DNA from: Kocuria rosea
GTDB taxonomy: Bacteria > Actinomycetota > Actinomycetes > Actinomycetales > Micrococcaceae
DNA length: 64,000 nt
Reading direction: 5' to 3'
Assembly: GCF_006094695.1 (NCBI RefSeq)
Contig: NZ_CP035103.1
Coordinates: 2,914,001 to 2,978,000, forward strand
Position numbers and translations under genes: made by a program. Positions 11,207 through 27,931 of the stretch are shown here, one piece after another; the stretch's first letter is position 1, and each line of letters opens with the position of its first letter. Under the pieces are notes generated by a model, which worked only from the letters and a program-made list of their open reading frames with translations, had not been told where the DNA came from and ran no database searches.

Positions 11207-11264
11207 GACCGGGATCCTTCGTGCGCTCTTGCTCGCACCGGGTACCGCTGCTGCGGCGATGCGA

Positions 11265-11323
11265 GCCGCTTCGTCATCCGAACCACCCGTGAACATGGGG
11301 TTGGTGCCCGGTCAAGTCGGAGC
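11265..11323 (-). repeat. Leader element, copy A (faces the gene at 11206)
   Basis: Read on the minus strand this runs from GCTCCGAC through CCAACCCCATGTTCACGGG to GATGACGAAGCGGC. The 40-base core matches copy B at all but about three positions. It can fold as a hairpin (CCAACCC with GGGTGG, one bulged A, ATG in the loop). It also opens a reading frame beginning MFTGGSDDEAA that continues in frame into the small gene at 11206. Confidence 0.7.
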
Positions 11324-11662
11324 TTGCCGACCGGGTCTCTTGAAGCTCTCCCCATTGAACCACATCGGCCGAACCGTGTCCGCGTGCGGCGACCCGGCCG
11401 GATCCGGTGCCCCCTCCTGTGCACAGGCCTTCCCCGGGGTGTCACCGCCCGGACATCTCGACGACACATCGTTGCGCTGGAATGGGTCCCGTAGTACCGG
11501 GGACGGCGCAGGCGACGGCCCCGCGCATTACGTTTCAGTGACACAACTCACGACTCGCTTGTCGAGGTGTCGGTGCCGCGGGGTAGCCTGAACCTGCTTC
11601 TCGAGATGCGGCGTCCACGCCCTCGGCCGGAGATCGACGATCCCCGGCGGAACCGTGGAGGG

Positions 11663-19694: not shown

Positions 19695-22600
19695 TCAGCT
19701 CATGAGCTTGTCCACCAGGGCCTGGGCGAACTCGGGCGTGACGTCCCCGTAGTTGAGCGAGAAGTCCTCGTCCACCTTGGCGGGCAGCAGCCCGGAGCAC
19801 AGGACGGCGGCGCGGGCGTAGAGCCCGGCCAGCTCCGCGCCGATGGGCACGGACAGCAGCTCCAGCTCGGGGTCGTAGGAGACGATCGGCACCCCCGCCT
19901 GCCGGGCCGCGAAGTGCTTGCCGATGCCCGAGGCCACGAACCGGGCGTGGCCGGACTCGACGTCGGCCGGGGTGCGGAACGCGTACCGGGTCCGGTGGTG
20001 GTGGTTGATCCGGTACAGCCCCGGGCGGTTCCGGTCCTCGGTGAGCTCCCACGTGGCGTCCTCGGGGACGAAGCGCTCGGCCACCCCGTTGTACTGCATC
20101 TCCGCGCGCCGCAGCTGCTCCTCGACCTCGGACAGCGGGGGCAGGGTCTCCAGCATCGCGGGCCCGGCGTCGAAGACGACGTCGCACAGCCCCACCGGCA
20201 GCGCCTCCTGCAGCGTCCCGAGGTCCACGTCCTGCAGCAGGGTGGTCCCGTGGTCCTCCGGGGAGAGCACCACCACGGACGCCTCCTGGGCCGCGGCCGC
20301 CTCCGCGACCACGGCCTCCTTCTCCGGGGTCCAGCCGCCCGTGAGCAGCACGGAGCCGTCCACGAGCTGGGTGAGCGAGGGCCCGCAGACCTGCCAGCGC
20401 CGCACGGTCCAGTGCTCGTCGCGGACCACCTCGAGGAAGCCGAGGGCCTGCAGGTGGCCCACGAACCACTCCTCGAACCGCTCGGAGTCCTCGAGCTGGC
20501 GGGCCACGATGGACAGGCTCGAGCGCTTCCCGCCGCCCAGGAACGTGAGGGCGTCCCGGAACGGCGCCCAGGACGTCGGGTACTCCCCCTCGTCCGGGCC
20601 GATGAAGCGCAGCGCCTCCACGGAGCCGGTGGAGGTGAGCGCGGAGGGCTTCGTGAGCCGGCCCGGATAGCGCTTCTGCAGCCCGCACTGGGCGCACTGC
20701 CCGAAGATCCACGGCGCCTTCGCCTTGGGCTCCATGGCCGGCAGCACGATGCGGTGCCGGCCGGTGGCCAGGCAGGAGCGCCCCTCCGGCTCGGGCAGCG
20801 CGTTGGTGCGCTCGAGCAGCAGCTGCCCCTCCGAGGAGTGCCAGCCCGGGGCGCCGGGGACCTCGTGGTCCCCGGCGGCCTCCCGTGCGGGCAGGTTGTC
20901 GAAGGCGCCCTGCACGTACCGCTCGGGCAGCTCCGCCACGATGCCCGCGGTGACGGGCCACAGGGGCTCCTCCTCGACGTGCACCATCTCGCCCTCGTAG
21001 CCGAGGGAGCGCTGGGTCAGGTGGAAGGACGAGTCGCGGAGCTTGAACTCGCGGCGCTGCCGGACCGTGCGCCCCGCCTTGAGGACGAGGGTGTAGTCGT
21101 TGGGCTTGAGGGTCCGGTCCGCCCGCGCCATCGGCGTGCCGTGCAGCGAGATCTGGAACGGGGGCACACGCCCCTCCACGAGCTTGGCCTTCTCCAGCTT
21201 GAAGGAGTGCGGGTTGCGCCACTCGCACTCCACGGTGAGGGGCGCGTCCGTGTCCGAGGTGATGGTCACCTGCGGCGGGCGCAGCGCGGACCAGCGCACC
21301 ACGTCGCCGGGGATCCGCAGCCCGCCGGAGAGGGTCACGGCGGGCACGAGACGGGGCACCAGGCCGGAGAAGTTGTCGTTCGCGGTCAGCTCCGGGTTGC
21401 CCGCGCGCAGCACCTGCACGTCGTCGAACATCACCCACCCCTCGGCGAGGCCGTGGCTGCCGGCCTCCACGAAGCGGTAGTCCGGGGAGGCGGAGTCGTC
21501 GAGGATCCGCTTGATCTGGGCGATCCACTCCGGCTCGTCCCGGACCATGATCCGGCACGGCCAGGCCGCGGGGATGTGGTCCACGGAGATGAAGGTGTCC
21601 GAGAACCCGTCCTTCGCGAAGATGACGACGGGACGCGGGTGGCGCTCGAAGCGCACGTCCCCGGCGCTGAGCTGCAGGGTCCCGCCCAGCAGCGTCCCCG
21701 GGTCCATCCGCGCGGTGTAGGCGGAGACCCCCAGGAAGGCGTCCCCGATGAAGGACAGGAACACGGTGCGGGGCCCCGCCGTGGTCTCGAGCTCCACCTC
21801 CCGGCCGGAGAGGAAGCGCTTGGGCACCACGAAGCCGAGCTCGAACACGGGGTTGCCCACGTAGTCGGTGCTGTCCGTGAGGGACAGCGAGCAGGACTTC
21901 ACGGCGCTGCGGCCGGGCCCCCGGCCGTTCGCGCGGACCTCGGCGCGGGCCTGCTCGCGGGACTGCTCCCAGACCGCGAGCTCCGCGAGCGCGATCTCGA
22001 GACCGGGCTCGCGGGTGAGGGGGTTCGCCCAGACCTGCTTCATGGCCTTGGACGCCTTCGTCTCGGCCATGTCGAGCCAGAAGTCGAGGTAGACCCCGAG
22101 CTCGGCGGCGGAGAGCCCCTGCGCGGTGGTCATCCCCAGGTCCTCGAACATGCGGTGCAGCTGGCGCCGCTCGGCCTCGCCGAACATCGTCTGGGACAGC
22201 GCGAGCCCGACCGGCCGCTGGTTCACCGCGTACGCCGTGGGCAGCCCGATCTCGCCGTTGCGCAGCTCGAGCCAGTAGCGCAGCGCGTCCCAGTACGCCT
22301 CGGTGTCCTTCTTGAAGGAGGACTCGAGGGCCTTCGCGTTCTCCGGGCCGGCCTGCAGGAGCACGGTCAGGGGCAGGAAGAACGTGGAGACGGACTTGTT
22401 GCCCGTGCGCGCGGCCAGGGTCGACATGTGCCGCCCGGCGAGCGCGAACAGGGCGAGCAGGGCGACGACGGGCGGCGGCGGGATCTCCGCGATGGAGTCC
22501 AGGCTGCGGCGGGTGGCGCGGTACCACTGGCCGTTGAGCCGGTTGAAGACGTCGAACACCGAGCGCCGCCCGTCCTCGGTCACCAGCAGGGGCGTCACCG

Positions 22601-22820
22601 AGTCGGCGAGCGCCCGCAGGGTCGAGGGCCCGTCGAGGCCGCGCTCCTCGCCGATCGCGGCGAGCGTCTTGTCGTCGAGGTCGAGGTAGATCAGCTCTCC
22701 CGCCCGCTCCGGGCCGAAGAACGCCGCGCAGACCGCGTCGTTCCAGCGGAGGTAGGCGAGCTCCTCGGCACTGTCGGCAATGGCATGGTCTCCGAGGCGG
22801 AGCCCAGCAGTGTCGGGCAC
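19695..22820 (-). CDS. Large protein of unknown family, divergent partner of a SNF2 helicase
   Basis: About 1041 residues from GTG 22820, with GGAGG just upstream; the open frame extends further but would overlap the divergent helicase gene. The first 300 residues look helical (DHAIADSAEELAYLRWNDAV onward). Residues about 300-690 look rich in beta strands. A CxxC knuckle (GQCAQCGLQKRYPG) lies near residue 710, and a winged-helix-like segment (FEEWFVGHLQALGFLEVV) follows near 780. The last 200 residues end in FSLNYGDVTPEFAQALVDKL. I recognise no catalytic motif or named family. The 127-bp divergent spacer shared with the helicase suggests a joint role, possibly nucleic acid handling or phage defence, which is inference only. 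Confidence 0.75.
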   Translation of the reverse strand: MPDTAGLRLGDHAIADSAEELAYLRWNDAVCAAFFGPERAGELIYLDLDDKTLAAIGEERGLDGPSTLRALADSVTPLLVTEDGRRSVFDVFNRLNGQWYRATRRSLDSIAEIPPPPVVALLALFALAGRHMSTLAARTGNKSVSTFFLPLTVLLQAGPENAKALESSFKKDTEAYWDALRYWLELRNGEIGLPTAYAVNQRPVGLALSQTMFGEAERRQLHRMFEDLGMTTAQGLSAAELGVYLDFWLDMAETKASKAMKQVWANPLTREPGLEIALAELAVWEQSREQARAEVRANGRGPGRSAVKSCSLSLTDSTDYVGNPVFELGFVVPKRFLSGREVELETTAGPRTVFLSFIGDAFLGVSAYTARMDPGTLLGGTLQLSAGDVRFERHPRPVVIFAKDGFSDTFISVDHIPAAWPCRIMVRDEPEWIAQIKRILDDSASPDYRFVEAGSHGLAEGWVMFDDVQVLRAGNPELTANDNFSGLVPRLVPAVTLSGGLRIPGDVVRWSALRPPQVTITSDTDAPLTVECEWRNPHSFKLEKAKLVEGRVPPFQISLHGTPMARADRTLKPNDYTLVLKAGRTVRQRREFKLRDSSFHLTQRSLGYEGEMVHVEEEPLWPVTAGIVAELPERYVQGAFDNLPAREAAGDHEVPGAPGWHSSEGQLLLERTNALPEPEGRSCLATGRHRIVLPAMEPKAKAPWIFGQCAQCGLQKRYPGRLTKPSALTSTGSVEALRFIGPDEGEYPTSWAPFRDALTFLGGGKRSSLSIVARQLEDSERFEEWFVGHLQALGFLEVVRDEHWTVRRWQVCGPSLTQLVDGSVLLTGGWTPEKEAVVAEAAAAQEASVVVLSPEDHGTTLLQDVDLGTLQEALPVGLCDVVFDAGPAMLETLPPLSEVEEQLRRAEMQYNGVAERFVPEDATWELTEDRNRPGLYRINHHHRTRYAFRTPADVESGHARFVASGIGKHFAARQAGVPIVSYDPELELLSVPIGAELAGLYARAAVLCSGLLPAKVDEDFSLNYGDVTPEFAQALVDKLMS

Positions 22821-22878
22821 GAGTCCTCCGTCCGCGGCCGCACGTGGGGCCGCTGTCGTCGTTCGAGGGGTCGCCTCG

Positions 22879-22884
22879 ATTATA
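22879..22884 (-). promoter_or_regulatory. -10 element for the 1041-residue protein gene
   Basis: A perfect TATAAT on the minus strand, rare in this GC-rich sequence, lies 58 bases before the GTG start. No clear -35 is seen. The same AT-rich patch may also contain the plus-strand promoter for the helicase. Confidence 0.5.
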
Positions 22885-22947
22885 GAGAGCCCGCGGGGCC
22901 GCTCCGCACGCGCGGCGCCCGGCGCCCCGGCCCGATACGGTGGGACG

Positions 22948-25900
22948 ATGCACTCCCCTCCCGGTCCCCTCGTGGACTCCCGGCGGCTCGTCGCCGCCTC
23001 CGGGCCCGCCGTCTTCCGCCGCGGCCAGGAGTACTTCCGCACCGGACGTGTGCGCGCCGTGCGCTGGTCCCCGGGCGCCGAGGGGTCCGGCAGCCTCTCC
23101 GCCGAGGTCGAGGGCTCCGGGTCGGTGTACTCGGTCTCCGTGCGGGTCGGGGCCGGCGGCGCCCCGGGACCGGCCTGGTGCAGCTGCCCGGCCGGCGGGT
23201 TCTGCAAGCACGCCGTGGCCACCGTGCTGCGCCACAACTTCGAGACCGCGGTCCGGGCCCACCAGCAGGGCGGGACCGCGGCGCCGTCGTCCCCGGCCGG
23301 CGCCGCGGCCCCCGAGGGTGCCGCCCCCCGGGCGGGCACCGCGCCCGGGCGACGCGGCGGGGCGCCCGACTGGAAGGACGCCCTGACCGAGATACTGGGC
23401 GGGCCGGACGCCGCGGAACCGCCCGCGGAGGAGCCCGAGGGGGTGGCCCTGGAGTTCGACCTGCGCCGGGAGCCGTACCGCTACGTGCACGGCACGGGCC
23501 GGGCGGGCTCGCCGTGGCACCTCTACGTCCGCCCGGTGCGCCGGGGCCGGCGGGGCGGGTGGATCAAGGGCGGGCTGGACTGGGAGAGCGTCACCGCCGA
23601 CGCCGGCCGGTGGTCGCTGAGCCCCGCCCAGGTCGACTGGTTCGACGAGCTCCGGGCGCTGAGCGCCACCCGCTCCCCCTACGCGGTGCACGACCGGCAC
23701 TGGATCCGGCTCGACTCCTACGCCTCCCCCCTCCTGTGGGGCATCCTCGCCCGGGCGGAGACCGCCGGGATCACCCTGGTCGGCCGGGAGCACGGGCTGC
23801 CCGTGACGGTCGAGGAGCCCGGACGCTTCCACGTGGACGTGCTGCGCGGGCCCGGGAAGGACCTCGAGCTGCGGCCCACGGTGGACAGCGGCGGCCGCCG
23901 GATCGCCCTGGGCACCGCCCGGATCATCGGGGACCCCGGGCACGGGCTGTTCGCCCCGGACGGGGACCCGCAGGACGTCGCCGACACCGAGGACCTCAAC
24001 GTCTTCCCGCTGCGCCTCGTGCCCCTGGCCACCCGGCTCACCCGCGAGCAGCGGCGGTTCCTGGACACGGCGGGCGGTCTGCGGATCCCCGAGGACGAGG
24101 TCGAGGAGTTCTTCGACCGCTACTTCCCGCGCCTGCACCGCAGCATGGACGTGGACACCGGGGACGGGTCCATCGAGCTGCCGCAGGTCGCGGACCCGGA
24201 GCTGGTGCTCACCCTGGAGCACCAGGAGCTCACGATCCGCGCCCGCTGGGAGTGGGAGTACCAGAAGGGCCGCGACCGGATCCTGCTGCCCTTCCGCCCC
24301 GAGGACCCGCTCGCCGACGAGCCCGTGCACCGCGAGTCGTCCTGGGAGACGGCGGTCACCGCCGCCGTCCGGCACCGGGCGCCGGGGGTGGACTTCCGCC
24401 GCTCGAGCTACGTGGCGCAGGACGCGCTGGTGCTCGTGCGGGAGTGGCTGCCCGCCCTCGAGAAGGTCCCGGACCTGCGGATCGAGCACACCGGTGGGCG
24501 CATGGCCTACCAGCAGATCGCCGACCCGCCCACCATCACCGTCAGCACCGCCGCCACCGAGCGCCGCGACTGGTTCGACCTCGGGGTCACGGTCAAGGTG
24601 GGCGAGTTCTACATCTCCTTCGCCGACGTCTTCCGCGCCCTCGACCTCGGCCAGGACGTGATGCTGGCCCCGGACGGGTCCTGGTTCTCCCTGGACCGCC
24701 CCGAGTTCGACCGGCTGCGCGAGCTGATCGCCGAGGCCCGCTCGCTGCAGGAGACCCCCGAGGGACCGCTGCGCATCCACCGGCACCAGGCCGGGCTGTG
24801 GCAGGACTTCGAGGACGTCGCGACGGACACCGACCAGGCCGAGGCCTGGCGGGAGGGGGTGCGCTCCCTGCTCGAGCTCGGGACCCTCGAGGCGCCCCCC
24901 GTGCCCGCGACCCTGCACGCCGAGCTGCGGCCGTACCAGCGCGACGGCTACTCGTGGCTGAGCGTGCTGTGGGACCACGGCCTGGGCGGGATCCTCGCCG
25001 ACGACATGGGTCTGGGCAAGACCGTGCAGGCCATCGCCCTGATCTGCCGCGCCGTCGAGCGCGACCCGGACCTCCCCCCGTTCCTGGTGGTCGCCCCGAC
25101 CTCCGTGGTGCCCAACTGGACGGCGGAGATCCGCCGCTTCGCCCCGTCCCTGCCGGTCGTGGGCGTGACCGACACCCAGGCCAAGGCCGGCACCGATCTC
25201 GTGGACGCCGCCGCCGGCGCCCGTGTGGTGGTGACCTCCTACACCCTGTTGCGCCTGGACGAGGCCGCCTACCGGGGGATGTCCTGGGCGGGGGTGCTCC
25301 TCGACGAGGCGCAGTTCGTGAAGAACCCGCGGACCAAGGCGCACCGGGCCGCGAAGGACCTGGACGCCCCGTTCAAGCTGGCGATCACGGGCACCCCCCT
25401 CGAGAACAGCCTCGTGGAGCTGTGGGCGCTCCTGTCCCTGACGGCGCCCGGCCTGTTCCCGTCCCGGCGGAAGTTCACGGAGACCTACCAGCGCCCCATC
25501 GAGCGCGGGGAGGACGCCGCCGCCCTCGCCCGGCTGCGCCGCCGCGTCAAGCCCCTCATGCTCCGCCGCACCAAGGAGTCCGTGGACCTGGAGCTGCCCC
25601 CCAAGCTCGAGCAGACCATCGAGGTGGAGCTCTCCCCCGCGCACCGCCGCATCTACGACACGCGCCTGCAGCGCGAGCGGCAGAAGGTCCTGGGCCTGCT
25701 GCGCGACCTCGACCGCAACCGGTTCACGATCTTCCAGTCCCTGACCACCCTGCGCCTGCTCAGCCTCGACGCGTCCCTCGTGGACCCCACGGCGGACGTC
25801 TCCTCGAGCAAGCTCGACCTGCTCTTCGAGCACCTGCCCGAGATCGTGGCGGAGGGCCACCGGCCCCTGGTGTTCAGCCAGTTCACGAGCTTCCTCAAGA

Positions 25901-26310
25901 AGGCTGCGGCCCGCCTGGACGAGCTGCGGATCCCCTACGCCTACCTCGACGGCTCCACGACGGACCGGGCCAGGGTGCTCGAGCGGTTCACGTCCGGGCA
26001 GGTCCCCGTGTTCCTGGTCAGCCTCAAGGCCGGCGGCTTCGGGCTCAACCTCACCCAGGCGGACTACTGCTTCCTCCTGGACCCGTGGTGGAACCCCGCC
26101 ACCGAGGAGCAGGCCGTGGACCGGACCCACCGGATCGGTCAGCAGAAGAAGGTCATGGTCTACCGGCTCGTGGCCCGGGACACGATCGAGGAGAAGGTCA
26201 TGGAGCTCAAGGAGCGCAAGGCCAGGCTGTTCACCGCCGTGCTGGACGACGACAGGATGTTCTCCAGCGCCCTCACCGCCGAGGACATCCGGGGCCTGCT
26301 CACGCCGTGA
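22948..26310 (+). CDS. SWIM zinc finger plus SNF2-type DEAD/DEAH helicase
   Basis: A 1120-residue ATP-dependent DNA translocase. The N-terminus has a SWIM zinc finger (WCSCPAGGFCKHAV; C78, C80, C86, H88), thought to bind DNA or protein. A bacterial SNF2-associated region covers the middle. The motor starts near residue 650: GGILADDMGLGKTVQAI (Walker A, about 688-692), VLLDEAQFVKN (DEAQ box, about 786), ITGTPLENSLVELWALL, VFSQFTSFL, and AVDRTHRIGQQKKVMVYRL (motif VI, about 1061). All motor motifs are intact. ATG 22948 is 127 bp from the divergent start. The family occurs in repair and in defence systems; the partner is the unknown 1041-residue protein. Confidence 0.95.
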   Translation: MHSPPGPLVDSRRLVAASGPAVFRRGQEYFRTGRVRAVRWSPGAEGSGSLSAEVEGSGSVYSVSVRVGAGGAPGPAWCSCPAGGFCKHAVATVLRHNFETAVRAHQQGGTAAPSSPAGAAAPEGAAPRAGTAPGRRGGAPDWKDALTEILGGPDAAEPPAEEPEGVALEFDLRREPYRYVHGTGRAGSPWHLYVRPVRRGRRGGWIKGGLDWESVTADAGRWSLSPAQVDWFDELRALSATRSPYAVHDRHWIRLDSYASPLLWGILARAETAGITLVGREHGLPVTVEEPGRFHVDVLRGPGKDLELRPTVDSGGRRIALGTARIIGDPGHGLFAPDGDPQDVADTEDLNVFPLRLVPLATRLTREQRRFLDTAGGLRIPEDEVEEFFDRYFPRLHRSMDVDTGDGSIELPQVADPELVLTLEHQELTIRARWEWEYQKGRDRILLPFRPEDPLADEPVHRESSWETAVTAAVRHRAPGVDFRRSSYVAQDALVLVREWLPALEKVPDLRIEHTGGRMAYQQIADPPTITVSTAATERRDWFDLGVTVKVGEFYISFADVFRALDLGQDVMLAPDGSWFSLDRPEFDRLRELIAEARSLQETPEGPLRIHRHQAGLWQDFEDVATDTDQAEAWREGVRSLLELGTLEAPPVPATLHAELRPYQRDGYSWLSVLWDHGLGGILADDMGLGKTVQAIALICRAVERDPDLPPFLVVAPTSVVPNWTAEIRRFAPSLPVVGVTDTQAKAGTDLVDAAAGARVVVTSYTLLRLDEAAYRGMSWAGVLLDEAQFVKNPRTKAHRAAKDLDAPFKLAITGTPLENSLVELWALLSLTAPGLFPSRRKFTETYQRPIERGEDAAALARLRRRVKPLMLRRTKESVDLELPPKLEQTIEVELSPAHRRIYDTRLQRERQKVLGLLRDLDRNRFTIFQSLTTLRLLSLDASLVDPTADVSSSKLDLLFEHLPEIVAEGHRPLVFSQFTSFLKKAAARLDELRIPYAYLDGSTTDRARVLERFTSGQVPVFLVSLKAGGFGLNLTQADYCFLLDPWWNPATEEQAVDRTHRIGQQKKVMVYRLVARDTIEEKVMELKERKARLFTAVLDDDRMFSSALTAEDIRGLLTP

Positions 26311-26396
26311 CCTGCGGGTTCGTCCACCGGCCGTTGCTGGACGCGTCATCAGGGGGTCACATTCCCCCGCACGCGCGACGACCGGGGAGCAGGCAC

Positions 26397-26402
26397 TAGC
26401 AT
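26397..26402 (+). promoter_or_regulatory. Possible -10 element before the 470-residue protein gene
   Basis: TAGCAT about 117 bases before the ATG. The 208-bp gap after the helicase gene and this hexamer suggest the third gene of the module may have its own promoter. Confidence 0.3.
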
Positions 26403-26410
26403 CGGAAGTG

Positions 26411-26446
26411 CGTGGTGTCGTGCGGCGGCGTGGTGTCGTACGGCGG
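26411..26446. repeat. 18-bp tandem repeat in the leader of the 470-residue protein gene
   Basis: Two adjacent copies of CGTGGTGTCGTGCGGCGG differ at one base (TGC against TAC). They lie directly downstream of the TAGCAT hexamer and could be a regulator site or a simple slippage product. Confidence 0.6.
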
Positions 26447-26518
26447 CGCGGCCCCCTCGGCCCGGGCGCCTTCCCCGAGCCGATCCGACCATCTGACCAT
26501 CCGACCGGAGGATCCTCC

Positions 26519-27931
26519 ATGCCTCATGCCGTGGCGGGTCTCGCAGCCTTCGTGCAGCGCTATGGCTCCCTGATCCACGCGATGGCCGACCGCGGGATGA
26601 CCCGCGGCCAGGTGCGGATGCGCTTCCAGCTGCTGTTCCCCGAGGAGTCGACCGCCCTGCTGGACGCGGCGATCGCCCACCTGGGCGAGCGCTTCCCGCG
26701 GGACGCCTCCGCCCCGGACCTCAACGACGGCGCGGTCGGCGCCGGCGTGTGGCTGGTCATGGCCCAGCACCTCGGCCTGGCCCCGGCCCCCGACTACGCG
26801 GCGCTGAACCTGAGCACTGCCCTGGTCCGCGACGTCACGGGGCTGCTCGCGGCGTCCGACGCCGACGGCTCGCTCACCCGGCGGACTCTGGGGCTGATCG
26901 GGGCCGCCCAGCAGCACTGCGCCGAGAAGGCCTCCTGCCCCCCGCTCAGCGCGCACAGCTACGAGATCGCACGGCTGGGCCTGTGCACGGAGTCCGACTT
27001 CCTGTGCGTGCTCGCCCACCACTGGCCCGTTCCCGAGCGCACCGTCTCCCAGCGCCTGGGCGGCGGGCGGTGGGACGTGGCGCTCGAGCGGATCGGGCTG
27101 CAGGCCGGCGCGGAGCCCGCCCTCGAGCACGTCTTCACGGAGGAGGAGTACGCGACCGCCGTGACGGCGTTCCTCTCCCACTGCCGCAGCACCGGCCACC
27201 ACCCGACCACCGCCCGCTACGGCCGGTGGGTCGTCGAGCAGGAGGCGGGCAGCACCCGCCGCCCCTACTTCGACGGCGTCCGCCGCTTCTTCGGCTCATG
27301 GGAGGAGGCCATGCGCTTCGCCTCCGCCCGCCAGCCGGCCGGGGAGCCCGCGGGGGACGGCTTCGCCGACACGAGGACCTGGTCCGACCTGGCCACCCCG
27401 GAGGCCCAGGAGATGCTGGGCCGCGCCGGCATCGGCGTGGTCCTGCCGGACGCGGCGGCCCCGGTGGCCGGCGAGGACGTGTGGGAGGACCTGCGCCGGC
27501 TCATCGCCACGGTGCTCGCCCGGCTGCCCTGGAACGACTTCCTCGTCGTGGAGTACGAGCGCGACGACGACCGGTCGGAGGCGCCCGTCGCGTGGGCCGG
27601 GGTCGGCCCGCACGGCGTGGAGTGCGCCGTGCTCTCGGGCGGCCAGCTCGCGCACGCGGCCTGGCCCGTGGACGCCACCTTCTTCCACGAGGACGAGTGG
27701 AACGAGCCCACGGGCTGGGACCAGCCGTGGACCACGGCCCCGCTTGACTTCCCGGAGGCGGCGCAGAAGCTCGTCGAGGGCCTGCGCTTCGGCTGGGGCT
27801 GCGCCGATCCGTACCGCTTCCACTGGGGCGTGGGCTCCTTCCCCGCGGAGACCCGCGACGAGGCCTCGGTCATCGCCCCCGAGCGCCGGCAGTGGCGCAC
27901 CCCGGCGGCCCCGGACACCGTCGACTCCTGA
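26519..27931 (+). CDS. Hypothetical 470-residue protein beside the SNF2 helicase
   Basis: Starts at ATG 26519 behind CCGGAGGA. The first 190 residues are mostly helical. Residues about 200-262 (TAFLSHCRSTGHHPTTARYG, then FFGSWEEAMRFA) resemble the helix-turn-helix repeats associated with homing endonucleases, which bind DNA. Residues about 310-465 form a separate domain with DDRSEAPVAWAGVGPHGVEC and FGWGCADPYRFHWGVGSFP, reminiscent of the TY-Chap/YbjN-like fold common in Streptomyces; both assignments are tentative. No nuclease motif is visible. It follows the SNF2 gene on the same strand and may belong to the same functional module. Confidence 0.65.
   Translation: MPHAVAGLAAFVQRYGSLIHAMADRGMTRGQVRMRFQLLFPEESTALLDAAIAHLGERFPRDASAPDLNDGAVGAGVWLVMAQHLGLAPAPDYAALNLSTALVRDVTGLLAASDADGSLTRRTLGLIGAAQQHCAEKASCPPLSAHSYEIARLGLCTESDFLCVLAHHWPVPERTVSQRLGGGRWDVALERIGLQAGAEPALEHVFTEEEYATAVTAFLSHCRSTGHHPTTARYGRWVVEQEAGSTRRPYFDGVRRFFGSWEEAMRFASARQPAGEPAGDGFADTRTWSDLATPEAQEMLGRAGIGVVLPDAAAPVAGEDVWEDLRRLIATVLARLPWNDFLVVEYERDDDRSEAPVAWAGVGPHGVECAVLSGGQLAHAAWPVDATFFHEDEWNEPTGWDQPWTTAPLDFPEAAQKLVEGLRFGWGCADPYRFHWGVGSFPAETRDEASVIAPERRQWRTPAAPDTVDS

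Follow-up and report, generated by a model that had tools for sequence, protein, structure and literature searches.

We report that in the actinobacterial genus Kocuria, DruF is kept beside an SNF2 motor gene and is no longer linked to the helicase DruE, its partner in the movable anti-phage system Druantia. The locus lies in a 64,000-nucleotide stretch of the Kocuria rosea genome (contig NZ_CP035103.1, positions 2,914,001 to 2,978,000; the whole stretch is hereafter called the window), and the genome that contains it is a single contig of 3.95 Mb. The orphan druF gene (window positions 19695..22820, minus strand, GTG start) encodes a 1041-residue DruF-DruL fusion and is divergent from a SWIM-SNF2 translocase gene (22948..26310, plus strand, 1120 residues), the two being separated by an intergenic region of 127 bp (22821..22947). 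We infer that, probably, DruF was captured in a single event as a defence protein, then came apart from DruE and became a core component that works with the SNF2 motor.

An earlier note on this DNA, made without database searches, had placed the 1041-residue protein in no recognizable family. That label is ruled out by a full-length PADLOC match to the DruF2 profile (E 3e-163), which covered 1002 of the 1011 profile positions and aligned residues 195-1212 of the long frame with profile positions 8-1009. The C-terminal part resembled DruL (PDLC00057, E 2e-15). By these profile matches, the protein is a full-length DruF of Druantia type II/IV with a DruL-like C-terminus. The AlphaFold model and structure comparison upheld the anatomy read from the letters, namely a helical start, a beta-rich middle, a CxxC motif and a winged helix: the N-terminal helical region spans residues ~1-300, an Ig/FN3-like region ~305-600, and a C-terminal domain that opens with a winged helix ~746-1040. 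A zinc-like site with the pattern Cys-x5-His ... Cys-x2-Cys (C682, H688, C708 and C711, numbered without the first residue) was identical in all 28 aligned DruFs. The likeness to Druantia type II/IV thus consists of full-length DruF homology, the DruL-like C-terminus and the zinc-site residues common to these 28 proteins. DruF is among the least described Druantia proteins in the literature searched, and no paper found there treats Druantia and Kocuria together, most subscription papers being outside the scope of that search.

DruE is the only component common to all Druantia types, according to the accessible part of one account (PMC13192584). In the accessible part of another (PMC8565338), type II has DruM and DruG beside DruF and DruE, and type IV is defined by DruE, DruF and DruL. 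The window locus differs from both. Full-length DruE was absent from the window genome, where the best match to the DruE2 model (E 5e-7) fell in a frame of 827 aa that carries an MZB domain, so the locus does not qualify as Druantia of any type. Neither DruM nor DruG was recognizable among the neighbours (BCCT, aldehyde dehydrogenase, GMC oxidoreductase, SNF2, TY-Chap3, BenE and VIT genes), the DruM and DruG models having been searched there and not genome-wide. Type IV does not describe the locus either, with the DruL-like part fused to DruF and DruE absent.

We extended the search to 395 genomes, 27 from Kocuria (the window genome not counted) and 368 from outside the genus. Full-length DruE was found in just one of the 27 Kocuria genomes (G225); this genome has a second, non-syntenic DruF with DruE adjoining (L063, G225:C4) as well as an orphan copy in the conserved position. 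Seven Kocuria genomes (G185, G061, G267, G259, G174, G196 and G225) also contain frames of 2,129-2,261 aa with weaker, partial DruE matches, which are possibly type III-like Druantia. Outside Kocuria, 17 genomes had a DruF match; 16 loci were fetched (G148, with a 25-residue match, was not among them), and in 15 of these DruE lay next to DruF or close by. The sole exception was a DruF fragment (G390, L072), a 206-aa open frame with no DruE nearby. DruE directly adjoined every long DruF examined outside Kocuria (10/10, counting one that is split across two frames): seven of seven from other Micrococcaceae, the split one included, together with those of Mycobacterium (L025), Rhodobacteraceae (L026) and L151. 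Around short DruFs, DruE was up to ~2 kb away and not directly adjacent. In Mycobacterium sp. IS-1496 (L025), a match to the DruK nuclease model comes after DruF and DruE, and TerY and STK_OB model matches lie upstream. The Kocuria DruF is an orphan, without DruE.

This orphan is fixed in the genus. DruF profile matches were present in 27/27 Kocuria genomes, and in 25 of them a long open frame without inner stops ran across the whole match, the other two assemblies being 76-79% complete; for comparison, DrmB of DISARM occurred in 2/27. In the named genome collection, 24 loci matched the large protein, 22 from Kocuria (58-100% identity) and two others that were 29-30% identical. We fetched 24 relatives whose locus is intact; in every one, as in the window, druF and the SNF2 gene were adjacent and divergent. 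These counts leave out two incomplete assemblies with broken matches (G302 and G308), and of two largely overlapping sets of relative loci (L003-L024; L074-L093 with L161-L164) they use the second. Within the fetched stretches, VIT was found in 23/24 relatives, TY-Chap in 18/24 (tblastn) and benE in 8/24; genes or remnants of a betaine cassette abutted druF in 16/24, in two orientations. Because TY-Chap and benE come and go between SNF2 and VIT and the other druF flank is rearranged, the druF-SNF2 junction is the one present in all 24. The divergent pairing that the earlier note proposed to survey is thus conserved within Kocuria, and its view of the pair as an accessory or mobile module is ruled out by the genus-wide DruF matches and the single syntenic place. 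The pair is a core-genome feature of Kocuria, syntenic and universal in the genus, unlike the patchy Druantia systems. Outside Kocuria, none of the fetched DruF loci showed a close divergent druF/SNF2 pair. Two of those loci have a stretch 25% identical to the window SNF2 protein (L065 13696-14973 and L066 5860-7137, both plus strand), ~2.5-3.6 kb from a short DruF with DruE also nearby and in an orientation to DruF that differs between the two.

Phylogenetic analysis gave the direction of change. We first built a tree from 28 long DruFs, in which Kocuria is represented by 13 rows, from 12 loci and from the metagenomic protein P0019, whose neighbourhood is unknown. These 13 formed one clade with support 100/100, sister to DruE-bearing DruFs of Micrococcaceae (95/97), and the stem of this clade measured 1.42 changes per site. 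Because the long branches of L026 and P0031 met in this first tree, we chose eight short DruFs as the outgroup (six were fetched and have DruE nearby; the context of the other two is unknown); a tree of the N-terminal part, from which 5 of the 28 long rows were dropped, then recovered the same nesting (97/97, stem 1.13), with P0019 again among the Kocuria rows. The Kocuria clade is nested among DruE-linked DruFs, and the loss of DruE is therefore derived. The trees show a DruE-linked ancestor whose association with DruE was lost on the Kocuria stem, and the simplest history would be a single loss of DruE linkage there, rapid change and then conservation.

We also examined the history of the SNF2 gene. 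Its motor and SWIM finger, as the earlier note had read them, were matched by Pfam (SWIM, SNF2-rel_dom and Helicase_C), and the CxCx(n)CxH motif accompanies the motor (PF04434, 23.1 bits). A search of 32 Micrococcaceae genomes, of which 31 belong to other genera, found an SNF2 homologue in every one, and DruF was labelled near none of the 26 SNF2 loci fetched from other genera. In six of these 26 (L136, L140, L142, L143, L146 and L157), each from a different genus, a VIT homologue lay at most two genes upstream of SNF2; in Kocuria, VIT is downstream of SNF2. Since SNF2 is family-wide with no DruF nearby and VIT occurs near it in other genera, the simplest reading is that the SNF2 gene would be the older resident and DruF the newcomer. 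The SWIM motif was kept in 7 of 25 Kocuria loci, all close relatives of the window, compared with 23/26 SNF2s from other genera; it thus appears to have been lost in a lineage-specific manner in most Kocuria while DruF stayed. Its absence from 18 of the 24 relatives excludes the SWIM finger as an essential part of the pair.

Next, we considered selection. The ratio of nonsynonymous to synonymous substitution rates (dN/dS) of DruF was 0.02-0.18 in six close pairs. The six relatives used, out of the 24 fetched, are all close to the window; the others were set aside on the expectation of synonymous saturation. DruF had the lowest value of the local genes measured in five of the six pairs, the exception being the pair with L075, where VIT was lower, and by domain its values ranged from 0.01 to 0.32 in five pairs. 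We then compared positions at least 85% conserved in 13 DruFs (eight DruE-linked, five metagenomic and unplaced) with the majority residue in Kocuria. None of 35 such positions differed in the zinc region and C-terminal domain. Of the 54 in the N-terminal part and the Ig-like region, 13 differed (Fisher p 0.001), and at several of these the charge changed. The changed sites fixed in the 13 Kocuria rows include E129R, R213G, E411S, R414H, G446D and R505D. Judged from these values, DruF is under purifying selection, with the zinc site and C-terminal domain preserved. The site pattern would fit a kept nucleic-acid-facing end and an altered partner face, as a partner switch predicts.

The intergenic region was compared over 25 Kocuria loci. 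A hairpin in the druF 5' untranslated region (22824..22853, minus strand) lies directly 5' of a conserved GACGGAGGA ribosome-binding site. A stem of at least 5 bp was found there in 24 of the 25 loci, which are related and not independent; at random positions within these regions the rate was 25%. The hairpin arms came in six different pairs, among them GCGGCC/GGCCGC, GCGCC/GGCGC and GTCGTG/CACGGC, and no Rfam family was found at the hairpin at gathering scores. Translational control of druF would be plausible. By eye, we read a -10-like box, TATAAT, for druF (22879-22884, minus strand) and TACGGT a few bases 5' of the SNF2 ATG; the SNF2 transcript is perhaps leaderless.

The SNF2 protein also resembles motors of other defence systems. 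DrmD of DISARM, DpdE of Dpd and ZorD of Zorya are SNF2-type motors with strong PADLOC scores for it, the best being the DpdE model PDLC02851 (4e-204, residues 146-1122). The NCBIfam curated cut-offs for ZorD, DrmD and DpdE were not reached, and none of the other genes of these systems was recognizable among the window neighbours. DISARM combines DrmA, DrmB, DrmC and a methylase with the SNF2 protein DrmD; none of DrmA, DrmB, DrmC or the methylase was recognizable beside the pair. Homologues of DrmB and DrmC do occur in the same genome ~0.8 Mb from the window (L002, C1 ~3770400). Zorya type I has the channel genes ZorA and ZorB with ZorD; the SNF2 protein scored 248.5 of 1500 bits for ZorD, and no ZorA or ZorB was among the identified neighbours. 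Membership in DISARM or Zorya is ruled out by these cut-offs and neighbours, and BREX was judged from the neighbours alone. The actinobacterial SWIM-SNF2 helicases of the SCO1167/SCO6262 family (NCBIfam NF058637) share the SNF2 motor, but at 394.8 bits the window protein is far below their equivalog cut-off of 1200 bits and is no member. Of the link to phage defence that the earlier note had suggested, the origin of the large protein stands, as DruF of Druantia; no result indicates a present defence activity.

How might an orphan DruF work? In type III Druantia, the accessible text of PMC13192584 describes DruH as a likely phage-sensing partner with Ig-like domains that is coupled to the DNA helicase-nuclease DruE. 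DruF shares with DruH its position as a large DruE partner, its helical regions and its Ig-like domains, and by analogy with DruH as the proposed sensor (PMC13192584, same part), DruF would serve DruE in Druantia as a partner for recognition or regulation. The two nevertheless differ. No DruH was listed in a PADLOC scan of DruF at E <= 1, and positively selected sites are described in DruH, several of them in Ig-like domains (PMC13192584, same part), compared with low dN/dS there in five close pairs for the Kocuria DruF. The Kocuria DruF, which would keep the zinc-like site, the winged-helix C-terminal domain and the general fold, may bind DNA that is in an aberrant or infection-like state, or else a protein on such DNA, and the SNF2 motor would most likely supply the ATP-driven translocation or remodelling formerly done by DruE. 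Instead of a mobile island for phage defence, the cell would then have a resident complex for DNA surveillance or genome maintenance. That DruF and SNF2 form a resident complex acting on host or incoming DNA, an exapted defence component, is to our mind the likeliest mechanism, with an about even chance of being right. More tentatively, this may have come about by a swap of motors, in which DruF left DruE, was captured beside the resident SWIM-SNF2 gene in the Kocuria ancestor, and the pair was fixed as a cellular DNA-surveillance or repair complex. The readings weighed here and below overlap in part, and their probabilities do not sum to one.

Several points weigh against such a complex. There is no direct evidence of a DruF-SNF2 interaction, and a role in DNA maintenance is supported by none of the present results. 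The adjacency could reflect hitch-hiking, VIT being present likewise in 23/24 loci. The SNF2 motor seems to have a life of its own, because it is universal in Micrococcaceae with no DruF adjoining and its conserved positions are hardly altered, the majority residue in Kocuria differing at 5 of 219 family-conserved positions. A mirror-tree comparison gave a partial correlation of 0.889 for DruF and SNF2 given VIT and of 0.413 for DruF and VIT given SNF2; these values do not tell partners from other co-inherited genes, nor do they prove coupling, because long proteins give less noise. The domain contrast in changed DruF sites is post hoc, takes its domain limits from a model, and draws 5 of its 13 comparison DruFs from metagenomic proteins without a known neighbourhood.

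Some of these points would suit a DruF with its own host function and no functional tie to SNF2, the adjacency being kept by the shared short promoter region. The region is indeed stable in Kocuria, VIT included, and SNF2 homologues exist elsewhere without DruF; yet it is the druF-SNF2 junction that persists in all 24 relatives among patchy TY-Chap and benE genes and a rearranged druF flank, and we regard this explanation as doubtful. We think it unlikely that the orphan is still an anti-phage or anti-plasmid sensor, acting in trans with a housekeeping YprA/MrfA-type helicase related to DruE, with SNF2 a mere neighbour. In the DruE search, a helicase frame, mostly 760-940 aa long, matched weakly in each of the 27 Kocuria genomes, and the frame of the window genome (L001) carries the MZB domain; in addition, the accessible portions of two sources place DruE in a YprA-like family (PMC13192584) and report that type III DruE can be replaced by mycobacterial homologues (PMC13316683). 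However, the MZB helicase matches the DruE models in pieces only, DruF is universal where other defence genes are patchy in Kocuria (DrmB 2/27, DruE 1/27), and its dN/dS is low in the Ig-like parts too.

DruF and SNF2 could instead make up a complete, unrecognized two-gene phage defence, with SNF2 in the place of DruE. This is in keeping with the origin of DruF in a defence system and with the names of the PADLOC matches, by which Dpd, Zorya and DISARM use motors of the SNF2 type, but all Kocuria genomes searched have DruF, the locus sits between metabolic and transport genes and not in an island, and the dN/dS of close pairs bears no sign of an arms race; we consider it improbable. A decaying remnant of Druantia, to which the missing DruE might point, is scarcely credible and is already contradicted by the open frames in 25/27 genomes, the other two coming from the 76-79% complete assemblies, and by the low dN/dS of DruF. 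An exapted DruF working with the resident SNF2 motor thus stays our preferred explanation.

The third gene of the locus (26519..27931, plus strand) encodes a 470-aa TY-Chap3 (YbjN-like) protein (PF22552, E 1e-8). The earlier note had described three genes with a divergent pair, and all three frames were confirmed; the third protein as a module member was not borne out. TY-Chap3 is a variable neighbour that tblastn missed in 6 of the 24 relatives and whose dN/dS was the highest among local genes in four of the six pairs, and it is probably not part of the DruF-SNF2 pair. In the window group, it has an extra middle segment that is absent from shorter relatives in other Kocuria. Beyond it lie the BenE and VIT transporters, and the druF side is flanked by a choline/betaine cassette (BCCT, aldehyde dehydrogenase and GMC oxidoreductase). 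The window also contains a SAM-IV riboswitch at 11220-11345 on the minus strand (Rfam, 67.3 bits).

A DruE-free DruF that is kept genus-wide offers a simple route to learning DruF's own role. It is also a possible case of exaptation from a bacterial immune system with a clear before, in the DruE-linked relatives, and a clear after, in the orphan core gene. For genome annotation, a single-gene DruF match in Kocuria marks a core gene, not a defence system. If the more tentative swap of motors is true, a bacterial genus would have made part of its core genome machinery out of a mobile anti-phage system.

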